From Bacillus gobiensis (lineage in GTDB: Bacteria; Bacillota; Bacilli; Bacillales; Bacillaceae), in the NCBI RefSeq assembly GCF_001278705.1, contig NZ_CP012600.1, forward strand, positions 3,349,917 to 3,413,916: 64,000 nt of DNA, in the 5' to 3' direction. The position numbers and the translations under genes were made by a program. The notes beneath the pieces were generated by a model. That model had not been told where the DNA came from and ran no database searches. It saw nothing but the letters and a program-made list of their open reading frames with translations. Shown here in pieces: positions 35,175 to 61,726 of the stretch (positions are counted from its first letter, which is position 1; each line of letters opens with the position of its first letter).

Positions 35175-35729
35175 CGGACTTCATGCGACAAATGTTAGTC
35201 GGATAAGCAGGTGTCGTTGCCTTGGACGTCAGTCAACAATTTGCATTTAGAGAATGTAACGAGGTGTTTATCCGGCACGTACTACTTGACAGCGAGAGTG
35301 AAGAAGAAAAAAGAATTGGTTACCGACTAATCACCCCCATAATACGAACAGGAATCTGAGACTCTTACCCTATAAGCAATATTAAGGAGGTATTGATGAT
35401 GTTTTGGTTGAGAAGTATTATAATTGCGTGTTTTTCGTTAACAGCCCTTAGTTTATTTCTGTATCAAGGAACAGAGATTATTCATGCAATTTCCGATTTC
35501 TTTCATAAAAAAAATTAAAAAACAACCCCATTCTCAGCAGTGGGGAAGGAAAAAGAATCTAATCATGAGCATAATGAGAATATGAATCTGAGGCTCTTAT
35601 CCTGAGATTGATCATAAACAATACTAGGAAGGACTTTTCCAAAGAGGAAGTTAAACTATTTAATATAGTGGCTTATGTTATGTTCTTATCAAGAATCTCC
35701 CTCACGTGATTACAATTGGAGGGATAACA
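35175..35729 (+). other. Region between SulP and NUDIX genes
   Basis: Besides the 40-residue gene, a frame at ~35208-35360 encodes GVVALDVSQQFAFRECNEVF onward without a start and may be a remnant. GAATCTGAGACTCTTACCCT (35350-35370) is echoed at 35582-35603 (GAATCTGAGGCTCTTATCCT), a degenerate ~20-bp direct repeat. CCCCA/TGGGG at 35524-35543 forms a small hairpin. Confidence 0.3.
35396..35518 (+). CDS. Small membrane protein (40 residues)
   Basis: AAGGAGG (35384-35390) stands 5-8 nt before a double ATG. The peptide MMFWLRSIIIACFSLTALSL has one hydrophobic helix, then LYQGTEIIHAISDFFHKKN. It is likely real from its ribosome site. It lies downstream of the SulP gene and could be part of that unit. 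Confidence 0.5.
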   Translation: MMFWLRSIIIACFSLTALSLFLYQGTEIIHAISDFFHKKN

Positions 35730-36125
35730 TTGAAAAAAACCGTCAAGGTCGTCGCGGCCGTTATCGAAAATGATCAAAAAGAGATTCTCTGTGCACTAAG
35801 ATCTCCGGAAATGAATAACCCGAATATGTGGGAATTTCCAGGAGGGAAAGTAGAGGCCGACGAAAATATCTTCTCCGCGTTAGTAAGAGAAATAAACGAG
35901 GAATTGAGCTGCCAAATTGAAACGAAAGAAATCCTAATTGAAAATCTCCATGAATATGACACGTTCATTATTAATCTAATCGTTATTAAATGCCGTATTG
36001 TTGAGGGAACTCCAACACCGAGCGAACATTCAAAATTAATCTGGCTTAAAAGAGAAAATCTTGATTCCTTAAAATGGGTGCCTGCTGACATTCCTGCGGT
36101 AAAACAATTACTATCGGAAAAATAG
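35730..36125 (+). CDS. NUDIX hydrolase, MutT/CTP-pyrophosphohydrolase-like (copy 1)
   Basis: 131 residues from TTG 35730; GGAGGG is 6 nt upstream, and the same start is used by the copy at 55035. The Nudix box runs from GGKVEADE to REINEELSC; the usual Gly near its end is Ser here. MWEFPGGK and FEC-like acidic residues fit (d)NTP pyrophosphohydrolases that clean oxidised nucleotides. About 85% identical to the second copy, including flanking bases, so it is a recent duplication. Confidence 0.88.
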   Translation: MKKTVKVVAAVIENDQKEILCALRSPEMNNPNMWEFPGGKVEADENIFSALVREINEELSCQIETKEILIENLHEYDTFIINLIVIKCRIVEGTPTPSEHSKLIWLKRENLDSLKWVPADIPAVKQLLSEK

Positions 36126-54976: not shown

Positions 54977-55034
54977 ATAATAAATCAAGAATCACCCTCT
55001 CAAACATGCTATCATTACAAATGGAGGGATAACA

Positions 55035-55430
55035 TTGAAAAAAGTAGTCAAAGTAGTTGCAGCTGTTATTGAAAATGATCAAGAAGAAATTCTCTGTGCA
55101 CTAAGATCTCCGGAAATGAAGATTCCAAACATGTGGGAATTTCCTGGTGGCAAAGTGGAGGCAGATGAAGATATCTTCTCCGCTTTAGTAAGAGAAATAA
55201 ACGAGGAATTGCAGTGTCAAATCGAAACGAAAGAAATACTGAATGAAAATGTCCATGAATATGATACGTTTATTATCAACCTAATTGCTATTAAATGCAG
55301 CATTGTCAAAGGAACGCCGATTCGTAGTGAACATTCAAAATTAATTTGGTTGAAAAGAGAGAACCTTGATTCGTTAAAGTGGGCACCAGCTGACGTTCCT
55401 GCTGTAAAACAATTAATATCGGAAAAATAG
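55035..55430 (+). CDS. NUDIX hydrolase (copy 2)
   Basis: 131 residues from TTG 55035, with ATGGAGGGATAACA upstream as in copy 1. The Nudix box runs GGKVEADE to REINEELQC; the end-Gly is Gln. It differs from copy 1 at ~15% of residues; the ribosome site, TTG start and the hairpin after the stop codon are shared. Confidence 0.9.
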   Translation: MKKVVKVVAAVIENDQEEILCALRSPEMKIPNMWEFPGGKVEADEDIFSALVREINEELQCQIETKEILNENVHEYDTFIINLIAIKCSIVKGTPIRSEHSKLIWLKRENLDSLKWAPADVPAVKQLISEK

Positions 55431-55461
55431 TCTTTTCTTAATTGAGAAGACTATACTTTTT
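55429..55461. terminator. Terminator shared by NUDIX copy 2 and the helicase gene
   Basis: AGTCTTTTC / GAGAAGACT (one wobble) with CTTTTT on the plus side and TATTTTTC on the minus side. Confidence 0.7.
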
Positions 55462-58261
55462 CAGTGAATTCGATATACAAATTTGCCGGGACTTCGTTCT
55501 CCAATTTGATTTGGGTAGTAATTGGCTTTTCTCCTTCATAATGAACAGTATCGCCTTTCCCAATATAAATATATGGCTGCGTTTTTTTATCAATTTCCTT
55601 GTACTTCCTGACAAACAAGTGAAGGTTAATTCCCCGTTGTTTATTATGAATTATATTCTTTCCTCTTTCAGATGATTGAGCTGTACTATTTGGCGTCTCC
55701 CATTGAAAGGTTTGTTCATCAAGGAATTGATCATTGTAATTAATGCTTTCTTTAATATCCTCTTCCTTGTGCAAGTCGATAAATAGGAAAAAATCATTTC
55801 CATTTGTTAGCAACCCTGAACCTCGAAAGGCTGTGTGAATTTTTCGGTAGTTGGAAAGCAATGCAGCGTCGGTCATTTGATATTGTTCGTACAGTTTAAA
55901 ATGCGGAACACCATAGTATTCCTGTTTATATTCTTTTTCATAGCGGAAAATCCCATAATTCACGATATCTTCGATGTAATCTCTATATTCTTTCTTCTCT
56001 AGCAATTGCGGAAAGGCTCGAGTCTTCTTTAGAATACCGCTACTATTCGTAAATAATTGCGGTTTGTTGTTTTTCTGGATATTATCATAATAATCCTGAT
56101 TTAAACACTCAAATGCATGTAATACACTATCCCCATCAACGTCTTTAACCATTTTTAAAATTTCAAGCGTAGCTGTTTCAAGAGATATTTCATCGTGATC
56201 AAAAAGATATCGAATGATAACAAATTCGTGTATTCGTTTTAATGGCAGCTTGCTTGATAATTCTTTTAATGTCTGTTCAAAAATTTCATTATGTAACAGG
56301 TTTTTCAGATGATCATCCTTCTCAACCTTGGCTACGAATTGTAAATACGTTTTTTCACGATCAATAAATTTAATAGGATCAGGTGCCGCATCGAATTTCA
56401 GATAATCTAATAAGAAATATGGAATATATCCTTGATTGAGCTTCTTAAATTCGAAATACTCTTCCTTTAAATATTTCATGGAATTGAAGTTTTCCTTATC
56501 AATTTGCTCTAAAATTCTTTCCTGAGATATTTTATCCATTTGAATATGTGTACATCCTGGGATATTAGCAAATCCCGTTGAAATGGCTACCTTAAGACTT
56601 TCTTTATCATAATATCTACTTCCATTTAGCGCGATGGCAATTAGAAAGGCTTTATTATGGTTACCGATAAAATCAAGAACTGTTAAAAAGCTCTTATTCT
56701 TGTACTTTCTCAGTCCTCTTCCTAATTGTTGAATAAAGACAATTGGAGAGTTCGTTGGTCTGAGCATTAATACAGTATTTACAGAAGGGATATCTACGCC
56801 TTCATTAAAGATATCTACTGTGAAGATGCATTGTAACTCATCATTTTCATCTTCTAATCTTTGAATATAGTTTCCGCGTTGCTCAACTGTATCAGTGCCA
56901 TCTAAACTAATACTTAGGTAGCCCCTTTTATTAAACTCCGCCGCCATGAAGGTCGCATGTTCAATACTTGCACAAAATCCTAGGCACTTTCTTTTCTCTC
57001 CATCGTGCCCATAAAAATTCATCTTCTCAATGATAAAATCAACACGTTCATTCACCTTTAACCTTTTGGTAACTTCAGCTATGTCATCAATTGAAACACC
57101 TCTTAGGTCAATGCCTTCAAAATCTGTGATGCCAAAATAATGAAAAGGAATGATCAGCTCGTCATCTAAAGCCTCATGTAATCGTACTTCTAACGCGACA
57201 TTATTATCAAAATGCTCAAACACATTATGATTGTCGCTTCTTTCTGGCGATGCAGTCATCCCAAGAGTGAATTGTGGCTCGAAGTAATTTAAAACACCTT
57301 GGTAGGTTGGACTCGTTGCATGATGAGCCTCATCAATAATGATGTAATCAAACTCATCCTTCTTAAATTCATGAAAGCATTTGGACACTGTTTGAATAGT
57401 AGCAAATACATAGTCAACGTGTTTTTGCTTTTGATTTCCTGTCAACAACCCGAAAGTAAGGCCTTCATTCGGAAGGAGCATTTCAAAATTATCTCTTGCT
57501 TTTCTTAAAATTTCTTCGCGATGGACAATAAAAAGAAGTTTTTTTGGTTTGAACCTTTTGACATCAAAGGCTGACATATAGGTTTTCCCCGTACCAGTGG
57601 CTGCAATCACCAGAGCTTTTCTTTCGCCAAAATGTCTAAGCCGTTCTAAATTCTCAATCGCACGATTTTGAATTCTATTTGGAACAATATATTTCCGATT
57701 TTCATAGATCAGTTGATGGGTCATTTGCGATTTTTTGAGACTCTTAAGAAAACCTTCATACCTATCAATAAAATCCTGATCAGCATAGACGCTACTGTCC
57801 CACAAAATTTGATATTCCTTTAAAACCTCTTCTATAAAACCAGCGTTTTCTTTAGAAACGATTTCAACATTCCATTCAATATTACTTTTAAGGGCGCTTT
57901 GTGTAATATTGGATGAACCGATAATCACCTTATAGCTTTCCTCGTACTCGAAAATATAAGCTTTCGTATGAAAACCGAGCTCCTTTTCTGTAACAAAAAC
58001 CTTTAGCTCCACATTGTTAAACTCTCTTATCTTTTCTAAGGACTTTGCATCGGTGAAATTTAGATAAGTAGACGTAATGATCTTCCCTTTGATTCCTTTT
58101 TCTCCTGCTTCTTTTAATGGATCAAGCAAAAGCTGAAGGCCACTAAAATTAATAAATGCGACACTAAAATAAAAACTTTTGCACTCACTAATTGAACGTA
58201 TTAATTCTATTAACAAATTTCCCTTTTCTGAATTTACGATCAATTTTTTTTGGATGTCCAT
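55451..58261 (-). CDS. PLD-like nuclease / DEAD helicase / DUF3427 protein
   Basis: 936 residues from ATG 58261 (AGGAG 9 nt upstream). Domain order: an N-terminal phospholipase-D-like nuclease (about 1-170) with the HKD motif HTKAYIFEYE..GSSNIT; a superfamily-2 helicase with VIAATGTGKTYMSAF, IIIDEAHH, TLGMTASPER and the C-terminal QQLGRGLRKYKNKS; and a C-terminal DUF3427 domain with NLHLFVRKYKE. A single PLD motif implies dimerisation for catalysis. Such proteins are common in defence and mobile islands, and the gene is followed upstream by HEPN- and RT-like genes. An antiphage role is inferred. Confidence 0.88.
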   Translation of the reverse strand: MDIQKKLIVNSEKGNLLIELIRSISECKSFYFSVAFINFSGLQLLLDPLKEAGEKGIKGKIITSTYLNFTDAKSLEKIREFNNVELKVFVTEKELGFHTKAYIFEYEESYKVIIGSSNITQSALKSNIEWNVEIVSKENAGFIEEVLKEYQILWDSSVYADQDFIDRYEGFLKSLKKSQMTHQLIYENRKYIVPNRIQNRAIENLERLRHFGERKALVIAATGTGKTYMSAFDVKRFKPKKLLFIVHREEILRKARDNFEMLLPNEGLTFGLLTGNQKQKHVDYVFATIQTVSKCFHEFKKDEFDYIIIDEAHHATSPTYQGVLNYFEPQFTLGMTASPERSDNHNVFEHFDNNVALEVRLHEALDDELIIPFHYFGITDFEGIDLRGVSIDDIAEVTKRLKVNERVDFIIEKMNFYGHDGEKRKCLGFCASIEHATFMAAEFNKRGYLSISLDGTDTVEQRGNYIQRLEDENDELQCIFTVDIFNEGVDIPSVNTVLMLRPTNSPIVFIQQLGRGLRKYKNKSFLTVLDFIGNHNKAFLIAIALNGSRYYDKESLKVAISTGFANIPGCTHIQMDKISQERILEQIDKENFNSMKYLKEEYFEFKKLNQGYIPYFLLDYLKFDAAPDPIKFIDREKTYLQFVAKVEKDDHLKNLLHNEIFEQTLKELSSKLPLKRIHEFVIIRYLFDHDEISLETATLEILKMVKDVDGDSVLHAFECLNQDYYDNIQKNNKPQLFTNSSGILKKTRAFPQLLEKKEYRDYIEDIVNYGIFRYEKEYKQEYYGVPHFKLYEQYQMTDAALLSNYRKIHTAFRGSGLLTNGNDFFLFIDLHKEEDIKESINYNDQFLDEQTFQWETPNSTAQSSERGKNIIHNKQRGINLHLFVRKYKEIDKKTQPYIYIGKGDTVHYEGEKPITTQIKLENEVPANLYIEFTEKV

Positions 58262-58523
58262 TAGGGTGGCTCCTAGTAAGGTATTTGTTTTATACATCAG
58301 TTGATTTTTGTTGATGGTTTAGGGTTTAGAGAAGTAGGAAAAGGTATAACACTATTCTAGGATGCAAAATTCTTTTGGTATTCTTTAATAGAGAGGCATT
58401 CTCCCCCTTTATTAATGACGTGACCACCGTTAAAAAACACAGTTGAAGTAGATGAAAACTATATGAATTTTTTCTACTTTAATGACTATTACCAAAATTC
58501 CCTTTGATCCACTCACGCTTGAT

Positions 58524-59114
58524 CTAATATCCAATTACAAGTAGTCCATCTCTAATTTGCTTAAGACTATAATACAACCTATTATATTTTTCCTTATCAA
58601 TATTATGTATTATATTATTTAACAAACCTGCTAAATCGTCTAAGTATTGGTTCATCCGGTCTGGTGTAAGCATACTAATTAACTCTTCGTTCTTATTTTT
58701 AGATACTGTTTTAGAAAACATTACAGGTAAATAACTTGAAGTTCCTAAAAGCTCTAAATGATTTTCTTCCCAATGAGATATAAGATTTCTTATCTTTCTT
58801 AACTGTATTAGATTTTTTAGGGTCAAATCCTTTGTAATTATTCCTTTTTCAGTTAGTTTATCAACCCTAACATTAAAATGTTTTGCTTTTACTGTTAATA
58901 CTCTTGATGTCATAGCAACTGTTGTTTCTAGGGTAGCATTAATACTATAAATAGCTAAAACACCATACCTTGTGTTATTAAAAAAAATACCCTCTTCTAC
59001 TTTACCATAATTATAACCTATCTCTTTGAATGTCACTTTTTGCATTTTTTCTATACAATCTTTTGCATTTTTCATATGTACTGCGACTATTGAATATTCA
59101 AACCAATGTGTCAT
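58524..59114 (-). CDS. HEPN-like protein of the defence island
   Basis: 196 residues from ATG 59114 (AGGGGGAAG upstream), all helical. Residues R109-H114 read RNLISH, the R-x4-H motif of HEPN ribonucleases, preceded by LIQLRKI in the same helix. The rest is unlike any family I can name. HEPN proteins cleave RNA as toxins or defence effectors. The 260-bp gap to the helicase gene holds no gene. The assignment rests on the motif and the all-alpha character, so it is tentative. Confidence 0.55.
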   Translation of the reverse strand: MTHWFEYSIVAVHMKNAKDCIEKMQKVTFKEIGYNYGKVEEGIFFNNTRYGVLAIYSINATLETTVAMTSRVLTVKAKHFNVRVDKLTEKGIITKDLTLKNLIQLRKIRNLISHWEENHLELLGTSSYLPVMFSKTVSKNKNEELISMLTPDRMNQYLDDLAGLLNNIIHNIDKEKYNRLYYSLKQIRDGLLVIGY

Positions 59115-59206
59115 TTTATCACTTCCCCCTACTTGTTTATTATCAGACAATTTCGATTAGTAAAATTGTTACGGCTGGTTTAGTTGCTATATCAAACAAA
59201 TCATTT

Positions 59207-59990
59207 TTATTTTCGTCTTTCTTCTCGATTCATAATTCTATCAACACCTTTTAAGGTTGATTCAAAAAATGTATTTCTATCACTAGTATTTAGAACATGC
59301 TCTTCTCTCGCCAAAGTTTAATGCTCTACCAAAAGTTAGGTCTTCAAGAATTGAATCTCTCAAGTTATCATGAATGATTTTTGCAATACTTTCTTTGTGA
59401 ATCTATTGGAAGTGAATATATATTCGTAAATACTTTTTAAGCAGCTTCTTTTCTATTGCCATTGCTTTCTTCTATAACTTTTCGAAAGCATCACCATTTT
59501 CTACCCAGTTTTTTGCGAAATCATAAAAGTCAGTACCTATACTTAAGGAGTTAAGCATTTTCATATCCTTTTGGTAGAGATACCTCAGATGAATAGTATA
59601 CAAATTGTCCATTTTCAAGCTGAGACCAAATTGCGAGTTCAAATCCCTTAAGTACTGTAGCACAGGCTCAAGATACTTAAATAACTTATCAAATTGCGAG
59701 TCGACAGTAGGCGCTTTACTCATTTGAACAGAGACTGTACCTGCTTTTCCTTTTTTCTTTTCCCCTACATTTGGTATTGTAATTCCTACTGCTACAGGCA
59801 ACTTCCTCATCTCCCCAAGAGAAACATAAAGTTTCCAATTCAGCTTATTAGCTATATCAGTTTGCATAACTTCCTTGACTAACCCCTCTTCTACCGACGA
59901 TAAATATCTTCGTATAGTCCTTTCATCTAAATAGAGGAATTCTTAGCTGGAACATATAAAGCCCCTACTGCCCTAATAAGAACCCATTTT
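59207..59990 (-). pseudogene. Decayed gene in the defence island, with N-terminal helix-turn-helix-like region
   Basis: Fragments in changing frames line up as one protein: VLIRAVGALYVPAK, then EFLYLDERTIRRYLSS (HTH-like), the 131-codon open part (59472-59867, MQTDIANKLNWKLYVSLGEM onward) and IEESNGNRKEAA. After these come KVFTNIYSLPIDS, KESIAKIIHDNLRDSILEDL and TSDRNTFFESTLKGVDRIMN to the stop at 59207. At least three frameshifts and a stop are needed. The original was over 250 residues; function unknown. Confidence 0.6.
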
Positions 59991-60083: not shown

Positions 60084-61379
60084 TTATAATTTTGGGTCTT
60101 CTAATCGATATTCAATATTTTTCCAATGATTTTTCACTTGAGTTTCCATAAGGTTTTCAGTACTAGATTTTTCATCAAATATTTTCTGTGCTCTTGAGAC
60201 ATAGCTCAGGAAATTTCCATGTCCCTTCTTATTTTTACCCAAGTGTGAATAATTTTTATATAACTCTCTTCTATAGGATTTACGAGCGAACTCTTTTGAC
60301 TTACGATTACATATCCTTATTTTTCGATATGTTCTCGTATAATATTTAAAAAGACTTTTTTCTCTGATTCGAACCTCCTCGCCATTAAAGCTAAACCCTA
60401 GATAATCTAATTTTGTTTCATTAAATTCTAAGTCCATTATTTTATTATTAGTGTAAAAGTAATTTCCAGTCTTTTCAGGTTGAATCTCTAAATTTGGAAC
60501 CTGCTTTTTTACATTTTCCACAAATTGTTGATGAATTTGAAAATTATAGAGCTGGGCGTCTCCCCCATGAGGAATTACTATAATTAAATCATCACAATAT
60601 CTTCTATATAATCCATTTCGCTCATCTACATACTTCTTTATTTTTTCATCAAAATCTAAGAGATAAATATTTGAACAGACCGAACTAATTCCAGCTCCTT
60701 GAGGAATTCCAAAACTCTTAGAATTCTTATATATATTTTTATGCTTAAAAGCTCTAAACTCTTCTTCGGTAAAATACTTATATTTATTTTTTATTTCACT
60801 TTCAGTATATTTGATTTTCAAGTCAGATTCTATTGTATCTTTTATAAAATAACTGAATCTCGTTATATTTTTAAAGACATTATAATAGTCATCAGGTAAG
60901 GTTTCCTTTTTTAGGGTATAGCGGATTTTCTCTTTTAGATACCTATGGTCCAAAGTATCAAAGAAATTAGTAAAATCTGCAACAAAGATATATGCATTTT
61001 GTTGTGCTTTGATAAAATCAATAACTTCTTTAGCAAAATTAATATTACTTTTCCCGGATAAGTTATTTCTATAAGCAATAGCAACATCATTAATACCTAA
61101 TTCTTCAACAACAGAATTATAGTGATTATTTAATTTGTCACCATAATACTTATAAATAAAGCTATCGATATGAGAAGCATAAAATATTTTTCGGATTTTT
61201 TCTTTCGGCTTTTTAAGCTTTCTATTATACTTGTGAAACTTAATTTTAAAATGTATAAATGGATAAAATCCATGTTTAGCAATCCATCTGGGATTTTGTA
61301 TATTATTCTTAACTTTTTCGATAGATTTTTTATTATCTAGATGTGTATATCCCTTAACTCTATATTTTTGCTTATTCAT
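60084..61379 (-). CDS. Antiviral-type reverse transcriptase, DRT2 (UG2)-like
   Basis: 431 residues. RT motifs: FVADFTNFFDTLDH (132-145, first catalytic Asp), FGIPQGAGISSVCSNIYLLD (223-242), YRRYCDDLIIVIP (258-270, catalytic YCDD), LEIQPEKTG and LDYLGFSFNG. The N-terminal YRVKGYTHLD, ASHIDSFIYKYY and AYRNNLSGKSNINFAKEV belong to the UG/Abi class, not to group II introns (no maturase or HNH domain). The YCDD box and lone RT behind a ~300-nt structured leader fit DRT2, whose RT copies a leader RNA into repeating cDNA. The DRT2 label is inference; defence RT is firmer. No ribosome site is obvious before the ATG. Confidence 0.8.
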   Translation of the reverse strand: MNKQKYRVKGYTHLDNKKSIEKVKNNIQNPRWIAKHGFYPFIHFKIKFHKYNRKLKKPKEKIRKIFYASHIDSFIYKYYGDKLNNHYNSVVEELGINDVAIAYRNNLSGKSNINFAKEVIDFIKAQQNAYIFVADFTNFFDTLDHRYLKEKIRYTLKKETLPDDYYNVFKNITRFSYFIKDTIESDLKIKYTESEIKNKYKYFTEEEFRAFKHKNIYKNSKSFGIPQGAGISSVCSNIYLLDFDEKIKKYVDERNGLYRRYCDDLIIVIPHGGDAQLYNFQIHQQFVENVKKQVPNLEIQPEKTGNYFYTNNKIMDLEFNETKLDYLGFSFNGEEVRIREKSLFKYYTRTYRKIRICNRKSKEFARKSYRRELYKNYSHLGKNKKGHGNFLSYVSRAQKIFDEKSSTENLMETQVKNHWKNIEYRLEDPKL

Positions 61380-61691
61380 TTTTTGGCAGAGCTAGCAAGG
61401 GTATGTAATCGTAGTCTATTACTCTTTAAAAGAAACCCTTGCAAGCATACTCTCCTTTCGAATTATAGGCTATTGCTAGACTATAAAGAGACTACTAGAT
61501 GCACTATTAGCTTATACTATAATTAGTATATTGAATTGGTTGATTATGACGATTGGAGGTATCCAAATGCCCAGTTATTCAGAAGCAATATCATTTGTAA
61601 TTAGCTTGATTAGCAGTGGAATTACAATTGAGATAAAGCTTGACAGAAATTCACCAATTACCCTCATAACTTCTTTTATGAGGCTTAAACT
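61380..61691 (-). ncRNA. Structured leader RNA of the reverse transcriptase (candidate template RNA)
   Basis: About 312 nt from the predicted start (61691) to the RT gene. Stems include CCTCATAA/TTATGAGG (61662-61683) and TTGTAATT/AATTACAA (61595-61627). TTGGA/TCCAA lies near 61555 and a TATACTA-N4-TAGTATA palindrome at 61513-61530. GTAGTC(490-495)/GACTAC(411-416) and GCAAGGGT(435-442)/ACCCTTGC(395-402), numbers +61000, interleave as a pseudoknot. The first 114 nt are open in one frame (38 codons, hydrophobic: VIGEFLSSFISIVIPLLIKL). This resembles the template RNA of DRT2 systems. Confidence 0.55.
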
Positions 61692-61697
61692 ATACCG

Positions 61698-61726
61698 ATT
61701 TTACCATTTAATTCAGTCACAGTCAA
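61698..61726 (-). promoter_or_regulatory. Promoter of the RT leader RNA
   Basis: Minus strand TTGACT (61721-61726), 17-bp spacer, TAAAAT (61698-61703): five of six matches in each box. The start point near 61691 gives a leader of ~312 nt before the RT gene. Confidence 0.7.

Follow-up and report, generated by a model that had tools for sequence, protein, structure and literature searches.

The question raised by this locus is whether a reverse transcriptase (RT) gene and the leader RNA in front of it form a DRT2 system that builds a Neo repeat protein and, if so, from which strand and between which template ends. The window analysed here is the whole stretch of 64 000 nucleotides from Bacillus gobiensis. 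In the DRT2 systems described in parts of the two founding papers, the ncRNA is copied into antisense cDNA, and neo mRNA and ncRNA are opposite in polarity (PMC12039810, PMC11100668). As to the emphasis of described DRT2 work on Gram-negative hosts, raised in an initial annotation of the locus, the first of these papers (Wilkinson 2024) used the 42 orthologues nearest to Klebsiella pneumoniae DRT2, and 117 nt is the commonest published unit length (PMC12039810). Tang et al. include five DRT2 homologues; they found ncRNAs in divergent DRT2 clades, where Neo annotation was harder, and raised alternative mechanisms (Tang 2024; PMC11100668). As far as these accounts go, published Neo extraction relies on an ACA motif or on the template jumps that are expected.

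We read the locus as a DRT2 anti-phage system in which the leader is the template ncRNA for an antisense 150-nt Neo repeat made by joined cDNA, with a probability of about 0.87. The RT family, predicted fold, sequence elements, open frame, conservation and RNA covariation were computed here; binding, jumping, second-strand synthesis, transcription, translation, toxicity and defence are carried over from work on K. pneumoniae.

Reverse transcriptase and phylogeny

The RT gene (60084–61379, − strand) is a 431-residue open reading frame, the translation of which holds a YCDD active site in the stretch RYCDDLIIV. Drt2 was the best PADLOC class (2e-145; runner-up class 3.9e-19) and also the best NCBIfam model, at 367.9 bits, under the curated 390. 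The predicted structure, a confident, DRT2-like model, superposes globally on K. pneumoniae DRT2 (PDB entry 9c0i) with 399 aligned residues and 34% identity. By sequence family and predicted fold the enzyme is a DRT2 (UG2) RT, and the proposal of a DRT2-like RT in the initial annotation is supported. A homologue 83% identical carries the database name Bacillus subtilis (P0010).

The stretches downstream of the RT look, by eye, as if they were split into short ORFs, as in an inactive or decayed locus. A locus of this kind is highly improbable here, as the RT frame is open with its YCDD, the model is confident and DRT2-like and the template elements described below are complete.

The initial annotation had suggested a UG-class tree. 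When DRT3a and one group II RT were included, the long outgroup branches landed implausibly, DRT3a next to the window. The tree was rebuilt without these sequences and comprised 47 RTs, in which 39 rows including the window were split at 100/100 from eight rows including E. coli DRT2. L044, one of the eight, is coded as belonging to the phylum of the window, and the 39 window-side rows include phage, viral and plasmid loci.

Leader RNA

The promoter of the ncRNA/RT transcript, TTGACT-17-TAAAAT (61698–61726, −), predicts a +1 near 61691, 312 nt from the RT ATG. The template-bearing ncRNA of about 312 nt would occupy 61380–61691 (−), its ends being predicted. The YCDD-containing RT, the sigma-A promoter and a leader of this length, all reported earlier, were seen again in the sequence. 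The 5′ handle hairpin (CCTCATAA/TTATGAGG; 61662–61683, −) lies 7 nt ahead of the jump motif and covaries across 21 distinct handles, which is the outcome of the covariation check on homologous leaders that had been called for. In the 3′ scaffold (61380–61460, −) a long stem, GCUUGCAAGGG with CCCUUGCUAGC, encloses a GUAAU/AUUAC hairpin. A putative pseudoknot strand, GUAGUC (61490–61495, −), begins 9 nt past the G of the 3′ jump motif; its partner GACUAC (61411–61416, −) lies within the loop of that hairpin. The pseudoknot complement is present in 24 of the 29 leaders with a recognised loop (three of the 32 leaders counted have none); it is also satisfied by 422 of 756 foreign and 793 of 5800 shuffled loops, a contrast that is only moderate because wobble pairs were permitted. 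The window leader thus appears to be an upstream ncRNA with a 5′ hairpin and a 3′ pseudoknot, a DRT2 feature. At Rfam gathering scores the sole match over the window was a SAM riboswitch (RF00162; 52006–52106, −; 76.7 bits).

Predicted antisense Neo unit

As published cDNA is antisense and neo mRNA is opposite to the ncRNA, the frame was sought on the + strand of the window. This strand carries CAC at 61502–61504 and at 61652–61654, spaced by exactly 150 nt. In the RNA (−) these are, respectively, the 3′ jump motif GUG, the proposed re-annealing site, and the 5′ jump motif, the GUG of GUGAA, which would be the last bases copied. When 61654 is joined to 61505, the −35 hexamer TTGACA (61640–61645, +) and the −10 hexamer TATACT (61513–61518, +) come to stand 17 nt apart and the frame becomes endless, with a 50-residue repeat, LAYTIISILNWLIMTIGGIQMPSYSEAISFVISLISSGITIEIKLDRNSL. 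The 150-nt template region (61505–61654, + strand as the cDNA strand) has one open cDNA frame, the predicted Neo repeat, and no open sense frame. The joined promoter scores 11 of 12 letters. The genomic hexamer lying 17 nt upstream of TATACT shares none of six positions with TTGACA, and the promoter would therefore exist solely in joined cDNA. The promoter belonged to the search rule given below; the ribosome site and start codon did not. Both are found in the predicted frame, as a Shine–Dalgarno GGAGG (61555–61559, +) and an in-frame ATG 7 nt past it (61567–61569, +), so that a candidate promoter rebuilt over the junction with a 17-bp spacer is accompanied by GGAGG-7-ATG. The predicted antisense 150-nt Neo unit of this intact-looking DRT2 is well supported.

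The same mechanism could use another jump site. The best-scoring hexamer pair in the window and in L001, L003 and L004 uses the neighbouring TATAAT and gives a 145-nt unit that is not open; a 144-nt unit of the window (spacer 16 bp) is divisible by three and open, and its TATAAT is a better hexamer than TATACT. This 144-nt unit misses the shared motif and the 7-nt hairpin distance, and it is missing for L001, L003 and L004 among the four units listed per leader. We regard another jump site as very unlikely and prefer the 150-nt unit with TATACT because of its shared AC motif, hairpin distance and conservation.

Unit search in relatives

The first set comprised 43 loci besides the window (L001–L044, L016 being the window itself), from which seven near-copies were removed to leave 37 leaders. 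The filter was an ungapped comparison of the last 330 nt, through which some close relatives were kept (e.g. L001, L003, L023 and L024), so the counts are not independent. The unit rule required −35 and −10 hexamers (TATAAT or TATACT) matching at least 5/6, a 17-nt spacer after joining and AC at either side of the join, 8–11 nt past the −35; length and stops were ignored. The pattern was first spotted by eye on the window and L001–L015, and the limits of the rule were fixed after the lengths and open frames of all 37 leaders were visible; the clean test is therefore confined to 12 later leaders (L045–L056).

In the first set, 28 of 37 leaders gave a candidate. All 28 were multiples of three, 27 being open on the cDNA strand and two on the sense strand; 3700 dinucleotide shuffles gave 152 candidates, with 51 multiples of three and three open. 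The clean test gave seven candidates in 12 leaders: five were multiples of three and the same five were open on the cDNA strand, two of which had an open sense strand as well; two of the seven failed and five leaders yielded none. The 49 leaders together gave 35 candidates: length was a multiple of three in 33, the cDNA strand was open in 32 and the sense strand in four. By these predictions, in the window and in 32 of the 35 candidates the unit has a length divisible by three and an antisense strand free of stops. Of the 48 relatives, 33 have an RT with 40% or more identity to that of the window, and 28 of these passed; of the 15 below this value, three did.

The non-open candidates L038, L052 and L056 were dropped, and the hairpin, motif, Shine–Dalgarno, codon, pseudoknot and ACA counts refer to the 32 passing leaders. 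The rule gave no candidate in 14 of the 49 leaders (L015, L036, L037, L039–L044, L046, L050, L051, L053 and L055). Looser rules gave open units in L042 (138 nt), L037 (111 nt), L015 (156 or 180 nt), L046 (93 or 141 nt), L039 (138 nt), L044 (87 nt) and L051 (90 nt) and in the dropped L038 (138 nt) and L052 (117 nt); they also gave many non-open units, and none of their units was counted. A scan of viral contigs found no relative with a single RT protein and no match with the leader pattern; with an alignment it found five loci.

In L014 the RT frame is apparently broken after 49 residues and the leader retains an open 147-nt unit. One genome (G436) contains two DRT2 systems about 14 kb apart, L024 and L033, which belong to different motif clades (GUGA and GUUU).

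Coding strand and coding signal

The initial annotation had proposed a sense-strand repeat frame that is endless and lies within roughly the first 114 nt of the leader. Its idea of a template unit divisible by three and carrying an endless frame was retained; the strand and the position were not. The stop-free sense frame itself is present: it runs for 41 codons (61700–61578), 38 of them from the predicted +1, is hydrophobic and contains VIGEFLSSFISIVIPLLIKL, and, as given above, a few joined units (4/35) are open on this strand. It ends within 5–9 codons in 10 of the 32 leaders, and the 150-nt unit of the window lacks an open sense frame. Published Neo, in the parts of PMC12039810 and PMC11100668 that bear on it, is antisense, as are the open frames of 32 of the 35 candidates. 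A Shine–Dalgarno run of at least five before an in-frame start precedes 22 of 32 Neo frames, five of 64 other cDNA frames and none of 96 sense frames. The sense-frame reading was rejected for its want of a Shine–Dalgarno run and its early stops, and we consider it extremely unlikely; the unit with a joined promoter, Shine–Dalgarno sequence and start is that at 61505–61654 (150 nt, +).

A different alternative is that the RT is a DRT2 enzyme of which the cDNA, in the branch of the window, functions as a nucleic acid without coding for protein. Three points favour it: the harder Neo annotation and the alternative mechanisms raised for divergent clades by Tang et al. (PMC11100668, in part), the repeats of DRT9 and DRT10, which are made with no gene described in the portion of PMC12632851 concerned, and the codon-position substitutions. 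The last, at third:first:second = 134:117:102, show a weak bias, which speaks against strong protein constraint on the Neo frame. Against it stand the stop-free frames with in-frame Shine–Dalgarno sequences and starts, and the behaviour of unit length: across the 31 tree rows that have a unit, two changes of the 5′ motif and at least 14 changes of length were counted, the 11 lengths (132–162 nt) all being multiples of three. The mean hydrophobic fraction over the 32 leaders is 0.58 in the Neo frame versus 0.45–0.53 in the other five frames. We judge a purely nucleic-acid role unlikely and retain the antisense Neo repeat as the preferred reading.

Jump motif and comparison with known DRT2

All 32 units end at an RNA GU. 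The motif is GUGA in the clade of the window, GUUU in a second clade and GUAU in L020, L021 and the phage or viral loci L034, L035 and L054. Motif letters 3–4, past the GU, are the same at the two ends in 53 of 64 cases and in about 24 of 64 with ends paired across leaders; in L004, L007, L008 and L031 only GU is common to both ends. The distance from hairpin to 5′ motif is 7 nt in 29 of the 32 leaders, 15 nt in L020 and L021 and 8 nt in L048. The spacer is split across the junction as 9|8 in 25 units, 10|7 in six and 8|9 in one.

An ACA rule gave candidates in two of the 32 leaders and an open unit in none, and template ends like ACA-1/ACA-2 of K. pneumoniae appear to be absent from the window leader. 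In the positive control the same rule gave a 117-nt unit in both E. coli DRT2 loci (L057 and L058); it gave no candidate in the remaining six E. coli-branch rows (0/6). With no open unit under this rule in the 32 leaders or in these six rows, ACA marks a sub-clade and not all DRT2. L037, on a Photobacterium plasmid, has an open 111-nt unit with a shared ATCT in the cDNA and a spacer split 4|13, from which the jump motif may be variable in Gram-negative DRT2 too.

The K. pneumoniae system resembles that of the window in RT fold, in the ncRNA immediately 5′ of the RT with its 5′ hairpin, template and 3′ pseudoknot, and in the antisense endless frame, the junction-rebuilt promoter with a 17-bp spacer, the ribosome site and the start codon. 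It differs in its ACA jump motif (GU-led here), in unit length (120 nt versus 150 nt in the window and 132–162 nt in the branch) and in its RT, with 34% identity in the structural alignment. The two E. coli loci, annotated drt2 in RefSeq (L057 and L058), share the 17-bp rebuilt promoter and the antisense open frame and, by eye, L058 has 7 nt between the hairpin and its ACA; they differ in the ACA motif, the 117-nt unit and a spacer split 6|11 (9|8 in the window), and the L058 RT is 34% identical. DRT9, DRT10 and telomerase share repeat addition on an RNA template, as covered in part of PMC12632851. The branch of the window looks, from its predicted elements, to have the same mechanism as known DRT2 with a different motif. 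We think it probable that a large, mainly Bacillota DRT2 branch keeps neo and swaps ACA for clade-specific GU-led motifs that co-change at both ends, the jump site being set by the 7-nt hairpin distance and short matching ends and not by one sequence. Among the literature matches listed, none names Neo in a Gram-positive host; a first report is not claimed.

Genomic surroundings

Near the DRT2 gene, a 948-residue protein (55451–58297, −) has PLD, helicase and DUF3427 domains and matches PADLOC mREase_IV (E = 6e-168); DRT2 with this mREase_IV-like gene is possibly a defence island. Between the two lie an ORF with a DUF4145 match below cut-off (58524–59150, −) and an ORF without a Pfam, PADLOC or NCBIfam match (59472–59867, −). 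The segment at about 35688–36125 (+) is 83% identical to 54984–55430, which by eye has a NUDIX-like ORF. In L001 (1483–3685) and L002 (8–1696), ORFs upstream of DRT2 resemble serine recombinases by eye, and ORFs of 286 and 403 residues follow downstream. These flanking ORFs suggest a mobile element; neither the recombinase-like ORFs nor the 286/403-residue pair was seen beside the window DRT2. In an empty-site search with two flanks over 44 genomes of the genus, its own included, one flank matched in four and the other in 24.

Proposed mechanism and significance

By analogy with K. pneumoniae DRT2, the RT would hold the leader through the 5′ hairpin and the 3′ pseudoknotted scaffold and copy the RNA from 61505 towards 61654 into antisense cDNA. 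Copies would be joined head to tail at the GUG jump motifs, 61654 to 61505, and second-strand synthesis would place TTGACA-17-TATACT, GGAGG and ATG at each junction. Translation of the stop-free, hydrophobic 150-nt (50-residue) repeat would then arrest the cell.

On this reading DRT2 would build a gene that the genome does not contain in any readable form, and the same DRT2 logic would be readable with other motifs in Gram-positive hosts, here as 32 predicted units with exact junctions. The Bacillus subtilis name of the P0010 homologue means that a laboratory host may be at hand. The unit rule is a means to find more such systems and the motif variation a natural experiment on how the jump site is determined. 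Replacement by GU-led motifs, if true, would account for the hard Neo annotation in divergent DRT2 clades.
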